This document shows, piece by piece, positions 5,827 through 64,000 of a stretch of 64,000 nucleotides of DNA (its first letter is position 1; each line of letters opens with the position of its first letter). The position numbers and the translations under genes are program-made. The notes under the pieces were generated by a model. It was not told the origin of the DNA, did no database searches, and worked only from the letters and a program-made list of their open reading frames with translations. The stretch spans positions 467,001 to 531,000 of the forward strand of contig OY282373.1 of NCBI GenBank assembly GCA_958295805.1. The letters are read 5' to 3'. Source of the stretch: an uncultured Nitrospirales bacterium. GTDB lineage: Bacteria > Nitrospirota > Nitrospiria > Nitrospirales > UBA8639.

Positions 5827-7230
5827 TTAAGAAGATGTGTGAGGCTGGGTTTCAAACGACCCTCCGAGCGCCAGATGCAAATTGACGCGCTGTTTCAATC
5901 GCTCCACTTGCACTTGAAGCAAGTTATTGCGCGCCGTGAAATACTGTCGTTTGACTTGGTTCAGGCTCAGCAGATCAACGTCACCGGCGTTATAGCGCAA
6001 CTGGGTAAGGCGGACGGCTTGGCCCAACTCCCCAACCACCATCGTCAGCCGCTCCTCTCGCACCTGGAGAACCCGCTCATTCGTCAACGCCGTTTCTACC
6101 TCCTGAAACGCCGTGAGGGCGGTGCCGGCGTATGCGGCTAATGCTTGTTCTTGCTGAGCCGTGCGGATCTCGACCTCGGCTAGGCGGCGACCGCCGTCAA
6201 AAATCGGCGCAAGCAGATTGCCCCCGACGGTCCACGCCACGTGAGAAGGGTTGAGGATATTTCCGAGGGAACGGCTCGCTCCACCGATCTCGCTGGTCAA
6301 GGCCAACCGCGGGAGCCGGGCGGCGCGGGCGGATTGCGTCCGGTTAAAGGCCGCCGCCACCTGACGATCCCTCGCGATCAGGTCAGGCCGGCGCTCCAAT
6401 ATCTCGGACGGCAACCCTGCTGGGGCCGGGCTGGGAATCGGGGGGAGTGCATTGGCAATCTGCAACTCGGCCGCGGGGTAGCGTCCCAGCAACACTTCCA
6501 GGCTGCGCACGGCCTCGGTCAGATTGCCGTGATTGCGCGCGACGCTCTCTTGCGCCCGGGCCACGTCCGCCCGGGCCACGTTGAGATCGACCTGAGACAC
6601 GGCGCCGGCGTCAACTCTTGCCCGCACGACGTCTTGAGTTCCGCGTTCAATCATCAGCCTGTTCTCTTCCAAGGCGAGTTGCAATTTGTTTCCCACCGTC
6701 ACGAACCACGATTCGGCCACCTGAGCGGCAAGTGACTGACGCGCAAACTTGAAATCAGCCGCCGCGGCAACGGCATCCAGAACTTCCGCCCGCGTGGCGC
6801 TGCGCAGCCGCCCCCACAGATCGACTTCCCACGACACCTTGATCCCTAAATTCACGTTGCTCCGAATTCCGCCGGCGTTCACCGTGCCGGAACCGGTTGA
6901 GCCAGCGGACAAGTCAATGGTCGGGAGGAGCGCGGCCCCGGCTTGGCGGGCCCGCGCTTCGGCTTCAGCCACTTTCGCAGCGCTGCCACGGAGATCGCGA
7001 TTGTTTCGCAGGGCTTCCTCAACCAGCCAGGACAGTCGTGGATCCTGGAAGCTTGCGAGCCATCCGTCATCCACGAGACGCGGCTCCGCGTCTCCTCCGG
7101 CTTGCCACGTATTCGCAATCGGGAGATGTGCCTGCCGGCGGGCAGGCGAAGACTGAGGCGTGGCACAACCGGCGAGCAGGACAATCACCACGCCAAGGCG
7201 GACCATACTGGAAACGAATCTACATCGCAT
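5827..7230 (-). CDS. NodT/OprM-family outer membrane efflux lipoprotein
   Basis: 467-residue outer membrane factor that forms the exit duct of the tripartite pump. A lipobox, LLAGC, places the acylated Cys at residue 22. The family marks are visible: DPRLSWLVEEALRNNRDL near the N-terminus, WEVDLWGRLR at mid-protein, and the repeat of the fold in the second half (RRPDLIARDRQVAAAFN, then APIFDGGRR). It is the first gene of the operon, so transcription probably starts in the 140-bp gap to the divergent CBS gene. Outer membrane factor first, adaptor and permease after, is less usual than the adaptor-permease-channel order. Confidence 0.92.
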   Translation of the reverse strand: MRCRFVSSMVRLGVVIVLLAGCATPQSSPARRQAHLPIANTWQAGGDAEPRLVDDGWLASFQDPRLSWLVEEALRNNRDLRGSAAKVAEAEARARQAGAALLPTIDLSAGSTGSGTVNAGGIRSNVNLGIKVSWEVDLWGRLRSATRAEVLDAVAAAADFKFARQSLAAQVAESWFVTVGNKLQLALEENRLMIERGTQDVVRARVDAGAVSQVDLNVARADVARAQESVARNHGNLTEAVRSLEVLLGRYPAAELQIANALPPIPSPAPAGLPSEILERRPDLIARDRQVAAAFNRTQSARAARLPRLALTSEIGGASRSLGNILNPSHVAWTVGGNLLAPIFDGGRRLAEVEIRTAQQEQALAAYAGTALTAFQEVETALTNERVLQVREERLTMVVGELGQAVRLTQLRYNAGDVDLLSLNQVKRQYFTARNNLLQVQVERLKQRVNLHLALGGSFETQPHTSS

Positions 7231-7374
7231 AGGGTCGCCGTATATTCGTTAACGGCCACGTGCTCTGTCAACAATTTCCCGTACGATTCAAGCGTCAACT
7301 CCGTGCGTGCTTGATCTTCCGCGGCTAATGGCGTTTAATGCGTGGTCTTGCGTCAATAAAGAAAGAGGAACGAT

Positions 7375-7764
7375 ATGGCGACCGTCGGACAATTGATGAA
7401 CAGCGACCTGAGCGTCATTACGGAGGATGTCACGCTGAGACAGGCTGCCGGACACATGCAGGCCGAACGTATCGGATCGTTGTTGGTGAAAAGAGGGGAG
7501 GACTTTTGCGGAATTATTACGGAAACGGACGTCGTCCGGGCCGTGGCTGAACACGATGAGGTGCGTGGGATTTCCGTTGCTCAGGTGATGTCCAGCCCCA
7601 TTCTGAGCGTTGAGAAAAAGCTGTCGCCCCACTATGCCAGAGATTTCATGGCCTCCAAACGCATTCGTCACTTGGCCGTGACCGAGGAGGGGAACATCGT
7701 GGGCATTATTTCCGTGCGTGACCTTTTGGCCTATTTTAAGACCGTCTCCAAAGAAATTTCGTAA
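7375..7764 (+). CDS. tandem CBS-domain protein
   Basis: 129 residues made almost entirely of two CBS motifs (about 1-60 and 66-125), a Bateman module that usually binds adenosine nucleotides. Typical CBS signatures are seen twice: IGSLLVKRGEDFCGIITETD and IRHLAVTEEGNIVGIISVRD, each ending in an Asp that often contacts ribose. There is no fused catalytic or transport domain, so it is likely a stand-alone energy-state sensor acting on an unknown partner. GAAAGAGGA lies before the ATG. It is divergent from the efflux operon and convergent with sdhE, so it stands alone. Confidence 0.9.
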   Translation: MATVGQLMNSDLSVITEDVTLRQAAGHMQAERIGSLLVKRGEDFCGIITETDVVRAVAEHDEVRGISVAQVMSSPILSVEKKLSPHYARDFMASKRIRHLAVTEEGNIVGIISVRDLLAYFKTVSKEIS

Positions 7765-58658: not shown

Positions 58659-60296
58659 ATGGCGAGAGAACGACGAAAACAAGCCCGCCCCGACGCCGCA
58701 GCGAAGCCAACGCGCACGGGCCGACGTGATGGACAGACGGGTGCCGTTGCAGGCTGTGAAGCCGAACTCTGGCAGATGGCGGATGCCCTCCGCGGTTCGA
58801 TGGACGCCGCGGAATACAAACACGTCGTGCTCGGCCTCATTTTCCTGAAATACATCTCCGACGCCTTTGAAGAGACGCACGCCCGCCTCGCACGGCAGCA
58901 GGCCGAAGGTGCCGACCCGGAGGACCCGGATGAGTACCGCGCCACAAACGTGTTCTGGGTCCCGCCCGAGGCACGATGGACGCATCTCAAGGCTCAAGCC
59001 AGACAATCCACCATCGGCCGGTTTGTTGATGACGCGATGACCGGAATTGAGCGCGACAATCCGGCGATCAAGGACGTCTTACCCAAAGATTACGCCCGCC
59101 CGGCACTTGACAAACAGCGGCTCGGGCAATTGATTGACCTCATCAGCCACGTCAGGGTGGGCGACGAGGACGCTCGGTCCAAGGACGTGCTCGGCCGCGT
59201 GTATGAGTATTTCCTGTCGCAATTCGCCAGCGCAGAAGGCAAAAAAGGCGGCCAATTCTACACCCCGCGCTGCGTCGTCAAGTTGCTGGTCGAGATGCTG
59301 GAACCCTACCGGGGACGGGTGTACGACCCCTGCTGCGGGTCGGCCGGCATGTTCGTCCAGTCGGTCGAATTCATCAACGCGCACGCCACCGGCAACGGCA
59401 ATGGTGGAAAAACGCCCGGAGGCCCCAAGAAAGACATCTCGATTTACGGTCAGGAATCAAATCACACCACGTGGCGGCTGGCGAAAATGAACTTGGCCAT
59501 TCGCGGCATCGACGGCCAGATCGCCCAAGGCGACAGCTTCCTTAACGACCGCCATCCCGACCTCAAAGCCGACTTCATTCTCGCCAATCCGCCGTTCAAC
59601 GTCTCCGACTGGAGCGGCGAGCGGCTCCTCAACGACAAACGTTGGCGATACGGTGTGCCGCCCAAGGGCAACGCCAACTTTGCCTGGGTGCAGCACATCG
59701 TCCATCATCTGGCGCCCATCGGCGCTGCCGGCTTCGTGCTCGCCAACGGCTCCATGTCGTCGAACCAATCGAACGAAGGCGGTATTCGCAAGAACCTGAT
59801 TGAGGCGAACTTGGTGGACTGCATGGTGGCGTTGCCCGGACAACTCTTCTATTCGACCCAGATTCCCGCCTGCCTGTGGTTTCTCGCCCGCAACCGACGA
59901 CGCGACACGTTCCGTGACCGTCGCGGCGAAATCCTGTTCATTGACGCCCGCAAACTGGGCCGCATGGTGGACCGCACCCACCGGGAACTGACCGATGAAG
60001 ACGTCACCCGCGTCGCCAAGACCTACCACGCCTGGCGTGGCGAGGCCGGCGCCGGCGAATACGCGGACGTGCCTGGCTTCTGCAAAAGCGCGACGCTGGA
60101 GGAAGTCCGCAAACACGACCACGTCCTTACCCCGGGCCGCTACGTCGGCGCCGAAGCGCAGAAGGACGACGGCGAACCGTTCGAGGAAAAAATGAAGCGG
60201 CTGGTCGCCCAACTGCACGCGCAACAAGCCGACAGCGCCAAACTCGACGCGGCCATCAAGGAAAACCTGAACCGGCTTGGATTTGGAGAAGATTGA
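58659..60296 (+). CDS. hsdM: type I restriction-modification system methyltransferase subunit
   Basis: 545 residues. The helical HsdM_N domain ([36 protein letters not shown]) is followed by the N6-adenine methylase: [32 protein letters not shown] (SAM motif I) and [13 protein letters not shown] (NPPF catalytic motif IV). It modifies the target together with HsdS. AAGGA precedes the ATG. A higA-like gene and a HEPN-like gene separate it from hsdS. The hsdR gene is not in the window. Confidence 0.95.
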
Positions 60297-60401
60297 CGGC
60301 GACGGTCCAAAAAATAGAAAACACAATGCTTTGTCAATCGCAGATGAACGGCAATCGTGGCTCTTGGTGTTCCATCTCGGCTGGTTACACAAAAAATAAG
60401 G

Positions 60402-60704
60402 ATGAAGCCATCCATGTTCAAGCGAGCCGTTCATCCAGGTGAAATTCTGAAAGACGAACTTGCGGAGATGGGCGTGACCCCAACCACGTTTGCACGCCAG
60501 ATTGACGTACCGCCGAATCGCGTCAGCCAGATTATCGCCGGCAAACGTTCCGTGACCGGCGACACCGCCCTGCGGTTTGGGCACTGGTTCGGCGTCGAAC
60601 CCCAATTCTGGCTGAATCTCCAGACGCAATTTGACCTCGTCGTAGCCGACCAGCGAGTTGGTGCGGCCGTGTGCGAATTGCCGACCGCAGTCCGAAGCGC
60701 ATAA
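60402..60704 (+). CDS. HigA-family HTH protein inside the type I locus
   Basis: 100 residues from the ATG at 60402 (an ATG four codons later is also possible). KRAVHPGEILKDELAEMGVTPTTFARQIDVPPNRVSQIIAGKRSV and EPQFWLNLQTQFDL are the HigA pattern. No HigB gene lies beside it. It may be an orphan antitoxin or a regulator of the restriction genes, as at 23050. Confidence 0.85.
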   Translation: MKPSMFKRAVHPGEILKDELAEMGVTPTTFARQIDVPPNRVSQIIAGKRSVTGDTALRFGHWFGVEPQFWLNLQTQFDLVVADQRVGAAVCELPTAVRSA

Positions 60705-60811: not shown

Positions 60812-61240
60812 ATGAGCCTCGATTATTCCTCATTGGCAAGTGCGGTTACTCAACTACAAAAAAGCTTTGACTACCTTCACTCCGACGTGGCGCGGGAAGA
60901 CGTTGGTCTGCGCGAGCAGTTTCGGGCCGCGACCATTCAAGCGTTTGAATGTAGCTACGAATTGGCCATCAAAATGATCCAGAGACAACTCGCTCAAATC
61001 GTTGCCAACCCCGACGAGTTGTACAAAATCAGTTTCGCCGACCTGATGCGCAAGGCGACAGACGCCGGCATCATTCGCGATGCCCCACAATATATGCGTT
61101 ACCGGGAATTACGGAATAAAACTGTTCATACCTATGATGCGGACCGAGCAGAAACGACAGTGGCTTCGATGAATGATTTTCTGCACGACCTGCGTTTCCT
61201 GCTGAAGGAACTCGAAAGGCGCAATCGTGCAACCGATTGA
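60812..61240 (+). CDS. HEPN-like nucleotidyltransferase substrate-binding protein
   Basis: 142 residues, all-helical, of the HI0074/HEPN group. LASAVTQLQKSFDYL, then REQFRAATIQAFECSYELAIKMIQR and YRELRNKTVHTYD, where RxxxxH (RNKTVH) is the HEPN RNase motif. In MNT-HEPN toxin-antitoxin pairs this is the RNase toxin, silenced by AMP transfer from the MNT protein. Its stop overlaps the next frame, whose N-terminus is exactly such an MNT nucleotidyltransferase, but fused to HsdS. Confidence 0.88.
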   Translation: MSLDYSSLASAVTQLQKSFDYLHSDVAREDVGLREQFRAATIQAFECSYELAIKMIQRQLAQIVANPDELYKISFADLMRKATDAGIIRDAPQYMRYRELRNKTVHTYDADRAETTVASMNDFLHDLRFLLKELERRNRATD

Positions 61241-63335
61241 CATCAGCCCCGGCGACCTGAAGACGGTTCAGCATATTTTGCAGGAACACGTGCCGGAGTT
61301 GGAGGTCCGTGCCTTCGGCTCGCGCGTGTCTTGGACCGCCCGGGAGACTTCCGATCTCGACCTCGCGCTGATGACCACGGAGCCGTTGGACCTCCTGTGC
61401 GTGGCAGAGATGAGAGAAGCCTTCGATGAGTCCGATCTACCCTTCCGCGTCGACCTCGTGGATTGGGCCTCGACGTCTGAGAACTTTCGGAAGGTGATTG
61501 AACGCGAGTATGTGACGATAGCAGAAGGAAAAGAGCGGAATGCGATCGGTACTTGGCCGAACACGACCATTGGCGATTGCGCTTTGCTGGTGCGGGAGAC
61601 AATTTCACCTTCCGATGGAGAAGACGTACCTTACATCGGTCTTGAACACATCGGAGAAAACACTCTATCACTTCTGGGACATGGTACGGCAAGTGACGTC
61701 ACCAGTGTGAAAGCCTGCTTTCAGTCTGGCGATATTCTTTTCGGGAAACTCCGGCCTTATTTTCGCAAAGTTGTTCGAGCGCCTTTCGATGGGATTTGCT
61801 CAACGGATATTTGGGTTGTTCGTGCAAAAGAGAGAGCGGATCAAGGATTTCTCTACTATTGCATGGCATCCCAACCCTTTGTTGATTTTGCGACTTTGGG
61901 TTCCGAAGGCACACGGATGCCGAGAGCAAAATGGGAATATGTATCGCGATACGAAATTTCACTTCCGCCACTCCCCGAACAACGCGCCATCGCCCACGTC
62001 CTTGGCACCCTGGACGACAAGATCGAAGCAAACCGCCGCATGAACCAAACACTGGAGGCCATGGCGCAGGCGCTCTTCAAATCCTGGTTCATCGACTTCG
62101 ACCCCGTCCACGCCAAAGCCACCCTCAACAACCATCACTCCCCCCTTGAGGGGGAGTCGGCAAGACAAGGGCGAAGCCCGCAGTCGCGCCGGTGGGGGGC
62201 TATCCGACGCGGCTACACCCAACGCACCCTGACCACCGCCCAAACCCTCCGCTGCAACCGAACCGACGCCGAAGGGCTCCTTTGGCACTACCTGCGCAAC
62301 AACCAACTCGACGGCCACCGCTTCCGCCGCCAGCACCCCATCGGCCCCTATATCGTCGATTTCGCCTGCCTGGCCCGAAAAATCCTGATCGAACTCGACG
62401 GCAGCCAGCACGCGAAACGGCAAGACGACGACAAAAAACGAGACGCCTTCTTGCGCGCACGGGGCTACCGCGTCCTGCGCTTCTGGAACAACGAAGTCTT
62501 CGAGAACTGCTTCGGGGTTCTGGAGCGCGTATACGAAGCCGTCACGGAGACCCCCCCACCGGAGCCGCCTGCGCCTGACGGCTTGACGGCTCCGACTCCC
62601 CCTCAAGGGGGGAGTGATTGGACAGTCGAACGCGCCCGCGCCTATCTCGACAGCATGGACCCAGAAATCGCCGCCATGTTCCCCAACCGATTCGTGGACT
62701 CGGAATTGGGCAAGATACCGGAAGGGTGGGAAGTAGGATGTTTTGGTGATGTTGTTGACCAGATCTCCGACAAGGAAAATCCGTTCACTTCACCTGATAC
62801 TCTCTATCATCACTTCAGTATACCGGCTTTCGATGAAGACCAATGGCCCAAAACAGAGCATGGGGAGGACATTAAGAGCCAGAAATTGCGAGTGTTTCCC
62901 GGAGTCATTCTGTTATCGAAACTCAACCCGGAAATTGATCGAGTCTGGCTTGTGGACGTCCAGCAAGGGGATCAAGCCGTGTGTTCAACAGAATTTTTGG
63001 TTCTTCGCTCTCGGTCGCCATACGGGAATGCTTTTTCCTATTGTCTTGCACGCTTTCCTGTCTTCCGACGGGCACTATGTTCGCTCGTGACCGGAACTTC
63101 AAAGAGCCATCAGCGTGCACACGCCAATGCCGTCTTGGCACTACCCATCATTCTATCTCCCAAGTCCTTGGCTGAAGCATTCGAAATGGCAACCACGATC
63201 TGTTTGCAAAAGGTTCAGGTGAATCGCCGTGAATCCCGCACCCTCGCCGCCCTGCGGGACGTGTTGCTCCCAAAGTTAGTTTCCGACAAAATTCGGATGT
63301 CCAGAATTTCCAAGGAGAATAATGATGCCAAGTAG
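61227..63335 (+). CDS. hsdS: fusion of MNT nucleotidyltransferase, HsdS halves and a DUF559 nuclease
   Basis: 702 residues, GTG start. Residues 1-98 are an MNT nucleotidyltransferase: FGSRVSWTARETSDLDLAL (G31-S32, D43, D45) and RVDLVDW (D76). From about 103 (TIGDCALL) begins HsdS: TRD1 to about 250, then the conserved helix LPEQRAIAHVLGTLDDKIEANRRMNQTLEAMAQALFKSWFIDFDP. Residues about 303-464 are an inserted segment with a DUF559 endonuclease (AEGLLWHYLR, HRFRRQ, YIVDFAC, ILIELDGSQHA, YRVLRFWNNEV). HsdS resumes at VDSELGKIPEGWEV with TRD2 and ends normally. The frame is open throughout. Such a triple fusion may be cleaved, or may be a functional multi-enzyme; either is inference. Confidence 0.85.
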   Translation: MQPIDISPGDLKTVQHILQEHVPELEVRAFGSRVSWTARETSDLDLALMTTEPLDLLCVAEMREAFDESDLPFRVDLVDWASTSENFRKVIEREYVTIAEGKERNAIGTWPNTTIGDCALLVRETISPSDGEDVPYIGLEHIGENTLSLLGHGTASDVTSVKACFQSGDILFGKLRPYFRKVVRAPFDGICSTDIWVVRAKERADQGFLYYCMASQPFVDFATLGSEGTRMPRAKWEYVSRYEISLPPLPEQRAIAHVLGTLDDKIEANRRMNQTLEAMAQALFKSWFIDFDPVHAKATLNNHHSPLEGESARQGRSPQSRRWGAIRRGYTQRTLTTAQTLRCNRTDAEGLLWHYLRNNQLDGHRFRRQHPIGPYIVDFACLARKILIELDGSQHAKRQDDDKKRDAFLRARGYRVLRFWNNEVFENCFGVLERVYEAVTETPPPEPPAPDGLTAPTPPQGGSDWTVERARAYLDSMDPEIAAMFPNRFVDSELGKIPEGWEVGCFGDVVDQISDKENPFTSPDTLYHHFSIPAFDEDQWPKTEHGEDIKSQKLRVFPGVILLSKLNPEIDRVWLVDVQQGDQAVCSTEFLVLRSRSPYGNAFSYCLARFPVFRRALCSLVTGTSKSHQRAHANAVLALPIILSPKSLAEAFEMATTICLQKVQVNRRESRTLAALRDVLLPKLVSDKIRMSRISKENNDAK
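62134..62618 (+). mobile_element. candidate mobile DUF559 unit bounded by inverted repeats, inside hsdS
   Basis: Perfect 27-bp inverted repeats lie at 62134-62160 and 62592-62618 (core CCCCCCTTGAGGGGGAG). A second, inner inverted repeat of 11 bp (CCGGTGGGGGG at 62189-62199 and its complement at 62552-62562) is nested. Between them is little more than a DUF559 (Vsr/PD-(D/E)XK-superfamily) nuclease. The whole block is in frame with hsdS and sits in the linker between the two target recognition halves. It resembles a homing unit using REP-like ends. Confidence 0.7.
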
Positions 63336-64000
63336 AAACCGTCAATACAAGATGACCGTTGCTGGTCAACTTTTCAAACACCTTGGCCTCCAGATGTATT
63401 CCGGGGCCGTTCCCGCGATTTCTGAACTTATCTCAAATGCCTACGACGCAATGGCGAGAAACGTGTGGATCACAATTCCAACGGGACATTCAATTCAACA
63501 GATTGATGAAATCGTGGTCAAAGACGACGGCCACGGAATGAGTTTTGAGGAATGCAATTCGCTTTACCTGTTGGTGGGTAGGGACCGCCGTTCAGGTCAA
63601 AGCGAATGGACGAAAGCATATAATGGCGTGAGTCCCAGGAAAGTTCAAGGTCGGAAAGGTATCGGCAGACTTGCTGGATTCGGTATCGCCAACGGCATCG
63701 AGATCCAATCCGTCAAGGAAGAGGAAATAGCGCACTTCGCATTGGATTACGACGCGCTGACTAAGAATGACAACTTCGCGGACACCGAGGGATATACACC
63801 CGATACTTTATCTGATGATGGTAAGAGTACTACAGAAAAGCCTAACACAACCATAACGCTGTCCCGTCTGAAGATCAGCCGCGCTATTAAGGATGATGAG
63901 TTCAAACGGAGCATTGCTAGAAGGCTTCTCGTGCTCGATCAGAACTTTACGGTTCACGTGAACGGAACACCTATATCGAGGCAAGAAATTCCGTTTCAAT
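63325..64000 (+). CDS. GHKL (MORC/HSP90-like) ATPase, 3' end outside window
   Basis: Open frame from the ATG at 63325 (AAGGAG 7 nt upstream; an adjacent ATG at 63322 is less well spaced) to the window end, 225 residues so far. SGAVPAISELISNAYDAMA is the N box (Glu, Asn, Asp), VVKDDGHGMSF the G1 motif and GRKGIGRLAGFGIA the G2 motif. The first codons overlap the end of hsdS by 11 nt, so translation is coupled. GHKL ATPases of this type occur near restriction systems, often with a nuclease. Its identity beyond the ATPase domain is unknown. Confidence 0.82.
   Translation, partial: MPSRNRQYKMTVAGQLFKHLGLQMYSGAVPAISELISNAYDAMARNVWITIPTGHSIQQIDEIVVKDDGHGMSFEECNSLYLLVGRDRRSGQSEWTKAYNGVSPRKVQGRKGIGRLAGFGIANGIEIQSVKEEEIAHFALDYDALTKNDNFADTEGYTPDTLSDDGKSTTEKPNTTITLSRLKISRAIKDDEFKRSIARRLLVLDQNFTVHVNGTPISRQEIPFQ

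Follow-up and report, generated by a model that had tools for sequence, protein, structure and literature searches.

Two described systems come closest to the locus analyzed here. In type VII toxin-antitoxin (TA) pairs of the HepT/MntA kind, as passages of PMC7641770 describe them, the antitoxin MntA transfers AMPs covalently, by means of its GSX10DXD motif, to the tyrosine of the RX4HXY motif of the toxin HepT, and toxicity is lowered. PF08780-class HEPN proteins are counted among these pairs there. In the second system, the type I restriction-modification (R-M) system PrrI keeps the RNase PrrC inactive, and PrrC goes into action once PrrI is inhibited (PMC3710099, section 10). We analyzed a stretch of 64,000 nucleotides (the window) from an uncultured Nitrospirales bacterium, positions 467,001 to 531,000 of contig OY282373.1. 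The analysis confirmed that an MNT antitoxin domain and a complete HsdS specificity subunit are joined there in one frame, with an HEPN gene of the PF08780 class directly upstream. Sections 10 and 14 of PMC3710099 present links of HEPN proteins to R-M, this fusion not being among those given in them, and its main text mentions neither HsdS nor a specificity subunit. Among open-access papers in PubMed Central (PMC), the literature searched throughout this work, we found none describing an MNT-HsdS fusion. The more surprising part of the fusion gene is a DUF559 nuclease cassette within it, to which we return below. The fusion and its partner comprise the following features.

60812-61240, plus strand: hepT-like HEPN toxin gene of the HI0074 family, 142 aa (PF08780, 1.5e-24; TIGR01987)
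61227-63335, plus strand: MNT-HsdS(DUF559) fusion gene with a GTG start, 702 aa, a single open frame (mean confidence of the structural model, pLDDT, 77.8)
61227-61541, plus strand: MNT antitoxin domain, GSX10DXD intact (PF18765; structural match to HI0073, 1no5)
61554-62133, plus strand: first target-recognition domain of HsdS with conserved coiled coil (PF01420; PacII S subunit, 7vs4)
62625-63332, plus strand: second target-recognition domain of HsdS with coiled coil (PADLOC Specificity_I stretch 479-700; model and structural matches)

A reading made earlier from the sequence alone had placed an MNT domain at the N-terminus of the HsdS frame, and this was borne out. The frame 61227-63335 has no internal stop in its 702 codons. 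PF18765 matches residues 13-100 with 35.9 bits (cut-off 26.9), and the catalytic motif is intact (GSRVSWTARETSDLD, that is, GSX10DXD). The HsdS part is recognized by PF01420 (44.6 bits) and by the PADLOC Specificity_I profile (6.6e-79). There is no in-frame ATG, GTG or TTG between residues 96 and 120, and the start codons at residues 120 and 122 have no Shine-Dalgarno-like site. A separate HsdS start is therefore not evident, and we rejected an internal start that would yield HsdS as a protein of its own. The alignment of this PADLOC profile (PDLC03138) begins at profile position 2 and covers residues 4-120 of the protein; the profile therefore appears to contain such an MNT, unnamed. MNT-containing HsdS proteins thus seem to be present in databases already, unremarked.

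The same reading had recognized an HEPN protein with RNKTVH in the gene at 60812, again correctly. It scores 75.5 bits against TIGR01987 (HI0074 family, cut-off 55.8), matches HI0074 itself (1jog, 3.9e-22) and carries an intact RX4HXY motif, RNKTVHTY. GGAGG sits 10 nt 5' of the hepT start, and hepT overlaps the fusion gene by 14 nt. In an AlphaFold2 model of the fusion protein (24 rows, mean pLDDT 77.8, pTM 0.55), MNT is predicted to be well folded and is followed by a hinge at residues 102-108 with pLDDT below 50 and then by HsdS. The modeled MNT superimposes on HI0073 (1no5) with Z 19.8 and a root mean square deviation of 0.9 over 100 residues, at 53% identity; the model matches the PacII S subunit (7vs4) with Z 23.3 over 335 residues, spanning model residues 110-686.

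HI0074/HI0073 is the nearest pair of known structure. The locus thus shares with HepT/MntA (HI0074/HI0073) both domains, both motifs and adjacent, overlapping genes. It differs in that the antitoxin, a protein of about 100 aa in its own right in HepT/MntA, is here the N-terminus of HsdS. The gene order differs as well, since the MNT gene is usually 5' (PMC3710099, section 14) whereas here the HEPN gene comes first. Like PrrC/PrrI (PMC3710099, section 10), it places the gene for an HEPN RNase within a type I R-M operon that silences the RNase, the silencing being in our case a putative one. The R-M complex masks PrrC, which brings an ABC ATPase of its own; in contrast, the window has a putative AMPylating domain covalently within HsdS and an HEPN open reading frame (ORF) of 142 aa with HEPN-family matches alone and no ABC NTPase of the kind seen in PrrC-like systems. 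By analogy, the arrangement is most likely a covalent counterpart of PrrC/PrrI. Relative to HsdS of other type I systems (PacII, 7vs4; EcoKI), the pair of target domains and the pair of coiled coils are retained, and the protein has an N-terminal MNT and an internal DUF559 domain in addition.

To see how far the fusion extends, we used a query of MNT plus the first target-recognition domain. It matched 102 of 395 Nitrospirota genomes, and 20 promising stretches were fetched from these matches (L numbers denote fetched sequence stretches and G numbers genomes). The fusion is present in 14 of the 20, 13 of them close and one divergent (L060, G174), and an intact HEPN lies 5' of it in 10 of these 14. 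The remaining stretches encode free or otherwise extended MNTs; in L058, L059 and L061 the MNT domains have C-terminal extensions other than HsdS and also stand behind HEPN genes. In a search of named genomes, 209 stretches encode an MNT relative. Of the best 80 of these 209, 32 are fused to HsdS and 48 are not, shares that are biased upward and do not represent prevalence, because the query was built from fusions. HEPN is directly upstream in 31 of the 32 fused loci, and HsdM is found within the fetched stretch in 29. A separate HsdS was called in four of the 48 non-fused loci (L108, L111, L123 and L146). The unfused order hepT-mntA-hsdS occurs in L108, L123, L146 and L226, the last being Acetobacter sp. 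AC2005, which has hsdM-HEPN-MNT-hsdS-hsdR with overlaps of a few nt. The sequence-only reading had suggested a look for the same fusion in other genomes, and both searches found it. Separate MNT and HsdS proteins in relatives, which that reading had named as evidence against the fusion, are partly borne out by these unfused loci, yet the fusion occurs in dozens of other genomes and shows no internal start in the window.

According to record titles, the fused loci belong to Fibrobacterota, Pseudomonadota, Nitrospirota, Rhodothermota, Gemmatimonadota, Planctomycetota, Kiritimatiellota and KSB1. GSX10DXD is kept in 46 of 46 fused MNT sequences (four genes counted twice), and RX4HXY in 32 of 33 HEPN ORFs at fused loci versus 40 of 47 at free loci. 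On Zymomonas mobilis ATCC 10988 plasmid pZMOB01, the HEPN gene (ZMOB_RS09975) is accompanied by hsdR and by the fused gene (ZMOB_RS10260), whose annotation reads simply 'restriction endonuclease subunit S'. In a Magnetococcales metagenome-assembled genome (L106, 3458-5518), MNT is fused to HsdM instead (PF02384, 1.4e-102, plus NTP_transf_2) and has its own HEPN. Adjoining it is a second MNT, also with its own HEPN, fused to a short stretch that matches HsdS queries and in which Pfam reported no HsdS domain. In an MNT tree of 95 rows and 102 columns, with 46 of 92 inner branches open, 18 parsimony changes between fused and unfused states are needed, at least four of them forced by starred branches. 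A single origin of the fusion was rejected on these grounds; as far as this tree can tell, fusion or fission is recurrent. Judged by sequence, then, this is a genuine and widespread fusion with intact motifs.

We consider it fairly probable that the locus is a type VII TA pair built into a type I R-M system, with MntA as the N-terminus of HsdS guarding HepT, and that it additionally tolerates an in-frame DUF559 cassette. Architecture, motifs, recurrence and the ends and dispersal of the cassette element are established by sequence comparison; the AMPylation of this HepT, its silencing by the fused MNT and the trigger we infer. Once HsdS is made and assembled, the fused MNT would AMPylate HepT on the tyrosine of RNKTVHTY and keep it silent. 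The AMPylating domain would travel with HsdS, and toxin silencing would therefore depend on the very subunit by which self DNA is told from foreign. If HsdS or the complex were lost or blocked, whether by allele replacement, loss of the locus or phage anti-restriction, newly made HepT would stay unmodified and stop growth, as PrrC does for PrrI. It is plausible that cell survival is tied to the restriction system in this way through the fused MNT, as the sequence-only reading had proposed.

Several observations weigh against this interpretation. The MNT domain scores 35.6 bits against the NCBIfam MntA equivalog and does not reach its cut-off of 60, and the named-genome shares carry the upward bias mentioned above. 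Since AMPylation is covalent, loss of HsdS alone would not re-activate existing HepT; release would take an extra step, in which HepT is either newly made or stripped of its AMP. No HEPN was found in the Nitrospirota stretches L054-L056, which keep the MNT-HsdS gene, and in L052 (G197) a short hairpin element lies in frame within the RX4HXY motif of HEPN (6992-7456, minus strand) and interrupts it. The tie can therefore be broken while the fusion persists. That HEPN was not found or has an interrupted motif at some loci while all fused MNTs keep theirs nevertheless fits antitoxin logic.

Other explanations of the fusion have to be considered alongside. It might constitute plain addiction, making the R-M locus hard to lose without sensing phage or anti-restriction: MNT being tethered, a swap of the hsdS allele or loss of the locus removes the antitoxin too. 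Co-encoded toxin and antitoxin with overlapping frames and the occurrence on plasmids (pZMOB01, Acetobacter plasmids) speak for this possibility. We give it less credence than the guarding of HepT, because unfused neighbours would suffice for addiction, and the repeated fusion to HsdS, and once to HsdM, suggests that co-localization in the complex matters. It is a good deal less likely that MNT modifies HsdS, HsdM or HsdR, or that HEPN is a binding subunit only, the pair then regulating restriction and not forming a TA system. HI0073/HI0074 is indeed titled a two-protein nucleotidyltransferase (1no5), and MNT-HsdS stays where HEPN was not found (L054-L056), but RX4HXY, the RNase and AMP-acceptor motif, is retained in 32 of 33 HEPN ORFs at fused loci, which argues against such a role. 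Finally, the sequence-only reading had itself named a frameshift or assembly error near 61525 as a possible source of the fusion. Unfused relatives exist, and beyond this we found nothing in favour of an artefact of assembly or a missed stop codon. We regard it as ruled out for practical purposes by the open frame, by the source contig being an entire genome in one piece (2,904,372 bases) and by the recurrence of the fusion in dozens of further assemblies, a RefSeq plasmid among them.

The earlier interpretation is partly supported, by the fusion, the intact motifs on both sides and the tie to a complete type I R-M operon, recurrent across phyla; the DUF559 domain in the same frame had been overlooked. 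This domain and its surroundings are as follows.

62134-62160, plus strand: left terminal inverted repeat, 27 bp, containing the hairpin ACTCCCCCCTTGAGGGGGAGT
62229-62543, plus strand: predicted DUF559 (Vsr-like PD-(D/E)XK) nuclease domain (PF04480, 1.1e-38; 3hrl; 3r3p)
62592-62618, plus strand: right terminal inverted repeat, 27 bp, a perfect complement of the left one

The domain occupies residues 335-439, in frame between the two HsdS target domains. The HsdS linker from FD to the P-x-GW motif is 209 aa long in this protein versus about 37-39 aa in most listed HsdS, which rules out DUF559 as an ordinary part of HsdS. The model predicts that DUF559 folds as a domain of its own, connected to HsdS by two linkers of low confidence (305-330 and 444-462) whose coding sequences are the end parts of the element. 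The modeled domain resembles a DUF559 protein (3hrl, Z 16.3; sequence match 2.2e-25), the homing endonuclease I-Bth0305I (3r3p, Z 13.1) and Vsr (1cw0, Z 10.1).

Each 27-bp repeat contains the hairpin, and the exact hairpin occurs in 19 copies in this genome and in 10 of 14 genomes of the genus, with 6 to 35 copies in each of those ten (reversed control 0 in both cases). When the genome was searched with the DNA of the DUF559 segment, 42 rows were returned, one being the locus itself and the others matching end parts only. The short copies share both ends and pieces of flanking element sequence (74-97% over 66-155 nt), as would be expected of internal-deletion derivatives. The element thus combines terminal inverted repeats with multiple genomic copies, as a miniature inverted-repeat transposable element (MITE) or palindromic element would. 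Tandem arrays, in which a short hairpin element is repeated with adjacent sequence, are seen at L011 1520-2890 and L010 1261-2000; in L010, the duplication extends to the first part of a UvrD-like helicase gene. No close empty allele of the insertion site in the window's hsdS was found among congeners. In hsdM of congeners, two places are both empty and filled for short hairpin elements, no clean target site duplication being read off; at one filled site the window's hairpin is nested in another element, and the window's own hsdM is empty at both places. Six genomes have both the window's DUF559 clade and its hairpins, four have hairpins only and four have neither, so that a link between the two is not established. 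On this evidence we read the insert as an in-frame mobile nuclease cassette, probably tolerated in loops and linkers; the mechanism of its mobility we infer.

Hairpin-like flanks are common around DUF559 elsewhere. For each DUF559 match, the best-scoring inverted repeat in the 200 nt to either side was taken, with 14 as the threshold. With weak matches, partial matches and rows lacking a locus left aside, 27 of 32 match rows were scored in the genus and 22 of 39 in other genomes, and the threshold was reached by 20 of 27 and 18 of 22 loci, respectively (together 38 of 49). The same was true of 8 of 10 loci from a plasmid collection and of 9 of 20 Nitrospirota stretches, the latter mostly chosen for long frames. 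Among controls, 0.2% of 3000 random windows and none of 169 HEPN, HsdM, HsdR and HsdS genes scored as high. DUF559 without such hairpins (score below 14) also exists, at 7 of 27 genus, 4 of 22 other-genome, 11 of 20 Nitrospirota and 2 of 10 plasmid loci, including the Escherichia coli copy L233. A separate observation concerns Sinorhizobium meliloti pSymB (L236, 1430-1970), where the DUF559 gene LZK74_28985 lies between the arms of a 76-bp inverted repeat, which agree at 72 of 76 positions.

DUF559 matches at E 1e-20 or better are present in 101 of the 295 genomes of a phylum sample. We counted 22 in-frame hosts, the window included: eight HsdS (window, L048, L052, L054, L202, L207, L209, L214), nine HsdM (L074, L184, L200, L211, L212, L213, L215, L216, L218), and five hosts seen once each, namely RecG (L198), riboflavin synthase (L188), an intein-like insert located within a DNA methylase (L221) and two proteins that, from their Pfam matches, we take to be a YgiQ-type radical SAM protein (L181) and a CofE-type F420 ligase (L204). 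Hosts L209, L212, L215 and L216 were assigned by flank similarity alone and the others by Pfam or domain searches. In the less biased set of other genomes, 7 of 22 loci lie in frame inside another gene. L178 was not counted because its upstream frame reads as no recognized protein; L217 and L219, where DUF559 is N-terminal to a PAD_porph-family protein and has no inverted repeat, were not counted as hosts either, nor was L220, located at a contig end. Two of the hosts are unusual. In L218 (2646-4718, minus strand), a single HsdM has two in-frame insertions, one short and palindromic, the other DUF559, and in L221 (1582-3921), the insert lies at DPT|CGSGTT of the methylase, with DUF559 in the place of the homing endonuclease.

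Selection might instead have recruited the DUF559 segment to the R-M complex as a nuclease domain, with no mobility involved. HsdM or HsdS accounts for 17 of the 22 in-frame hosts, in samples taken partly from R-M-locus genomes and long frames, and in a DUF559 tree of 69 rows nine HsdM/HsdS copies form a starred clade found only in those genes. We consider recruitment unlikely all the same. The window's own starred clade comprises three HsdS insertions and three copies outside hsdS (L069, L071, L073), and copies also lie in frame in RecG, YgiQ, riboflavin synthase, CofE and an intein. Hairpins of the same family are scattered over the genomes of the genus and stand in inverted orientation at the two ends of the segment, and most free-standing DUF559 genes have similar flanks. 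One and the same HsdM loop has moreover been entered by different DUF559 clades (L074 and L218 versus L200). The mobile cassette may belong to a widespread class, a proposal that we hold to be about evenly balanced: non-splicing cassettes in the sense frame, each with a Vsr/I-Bth0305I-like nuclease between inverted hairpins resembling repetitive extragenic palindromes (REPs), looped out in the host protein and spawning hairpin-only copies, with R-M subunits as favoured hosts. The relation of RAYT transposases to REPs offers a comparison for that of DUF559 nucleases to hairpin palindromes. There is a chance that this class is new in kind; among the papers searched, we found none tying DUF559, PF04480, COG2852 or YcjD to palindromes.

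Vsr-like homing endonucleases such as I-Bth0305I and intein endonucleases have the same fold as DUF559, which in L221 takes the endonuclease place of an intein-like insert; in the window, DUF559 has no surrounding intron or intein and remains in the host protein. The fold and the intein-like case are what would point to a homing element. Vsr-like homing endonucleases in inteins were reportedly the subject of a 2009 paper. The EDxHD homing endonucleases, I-Bth0305I among them, are a precedent in passages of PMC3943268, in which the word Vsr is not used. Rickettsia palindromic elements, as covered in part of PMC10969869, are likewise palindromic repeats in frame inside unrelated genes; they encode short peptides, whereas the full-length element in the window carries a folded nuclease domain. 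For Thiomargarita, a MITE derived from PD-(D/E)XK_2 has been suggested in a passage of PMC4853749. A Caulobacter DUF559 protein triggers the SOS response in cells that lack a solitary cytosine methylase (PMC12907096), and the family can therefore act on DNA.

The remaining genes of the neighbourhood are these.

58659-60296, plus strand: hsdM, type I R-M methylase, 545 aa (PF02384, 4.2e-109; PF12161, 2.4e-29)
60357-60704, plus strand: HigA-family antitoxin-like gene between hsdM and hepT (TIGR02607, 88.2 bits, cut-off 47.7)
63322-64000, continuing beyond the window, plus strand: 5' part of a BbrUII/HgiDII-like HATPase restriction gene (NF050001, 159.6 bits; the cut-off of 550 applies to the full protein)

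The gene that follows the HigA-family one is HEPN and not a HigB toxin. In the longer stretch L009, the HATPase restriction gene, which begins at window position 63322, encodes 651 aa. It is the first gene 3' of the fusion gene, and behind it lie a cytosine-methylase-like gene, a Vsr-like gene, a TPR-repeat gene and hsdR, these four being named from their translations. The hsdR gene (L009 11338-14475) is outside the window; together with hsdM and the hsdS in 61227-63335 it makes up a type I R-M system at one locus. The HATPase, cytosine-methylase-like and Vsr-like genes lie between hsdS and hsdR (L009 5323-8853), and the same three genes are also found beside the MNT-HsdS of L045 (G185).

If the fused MNT silences HepT, the restriction specificity subunit would itself be an antitoxin, and the cell would therefore be set up to react to disabled restriction. 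The older proposal that HEPN RNases back up R-M would then become testable in cultured Zymomonas mobilis ATCC 10988. The insert, for its part, suggests mobility as a role for DUF559, a common family listed as 'unknown', and a route by which folded nuclease domains may come to lie in RecG, riboflavin synthase and other housekeeping proteins with the frame kept.

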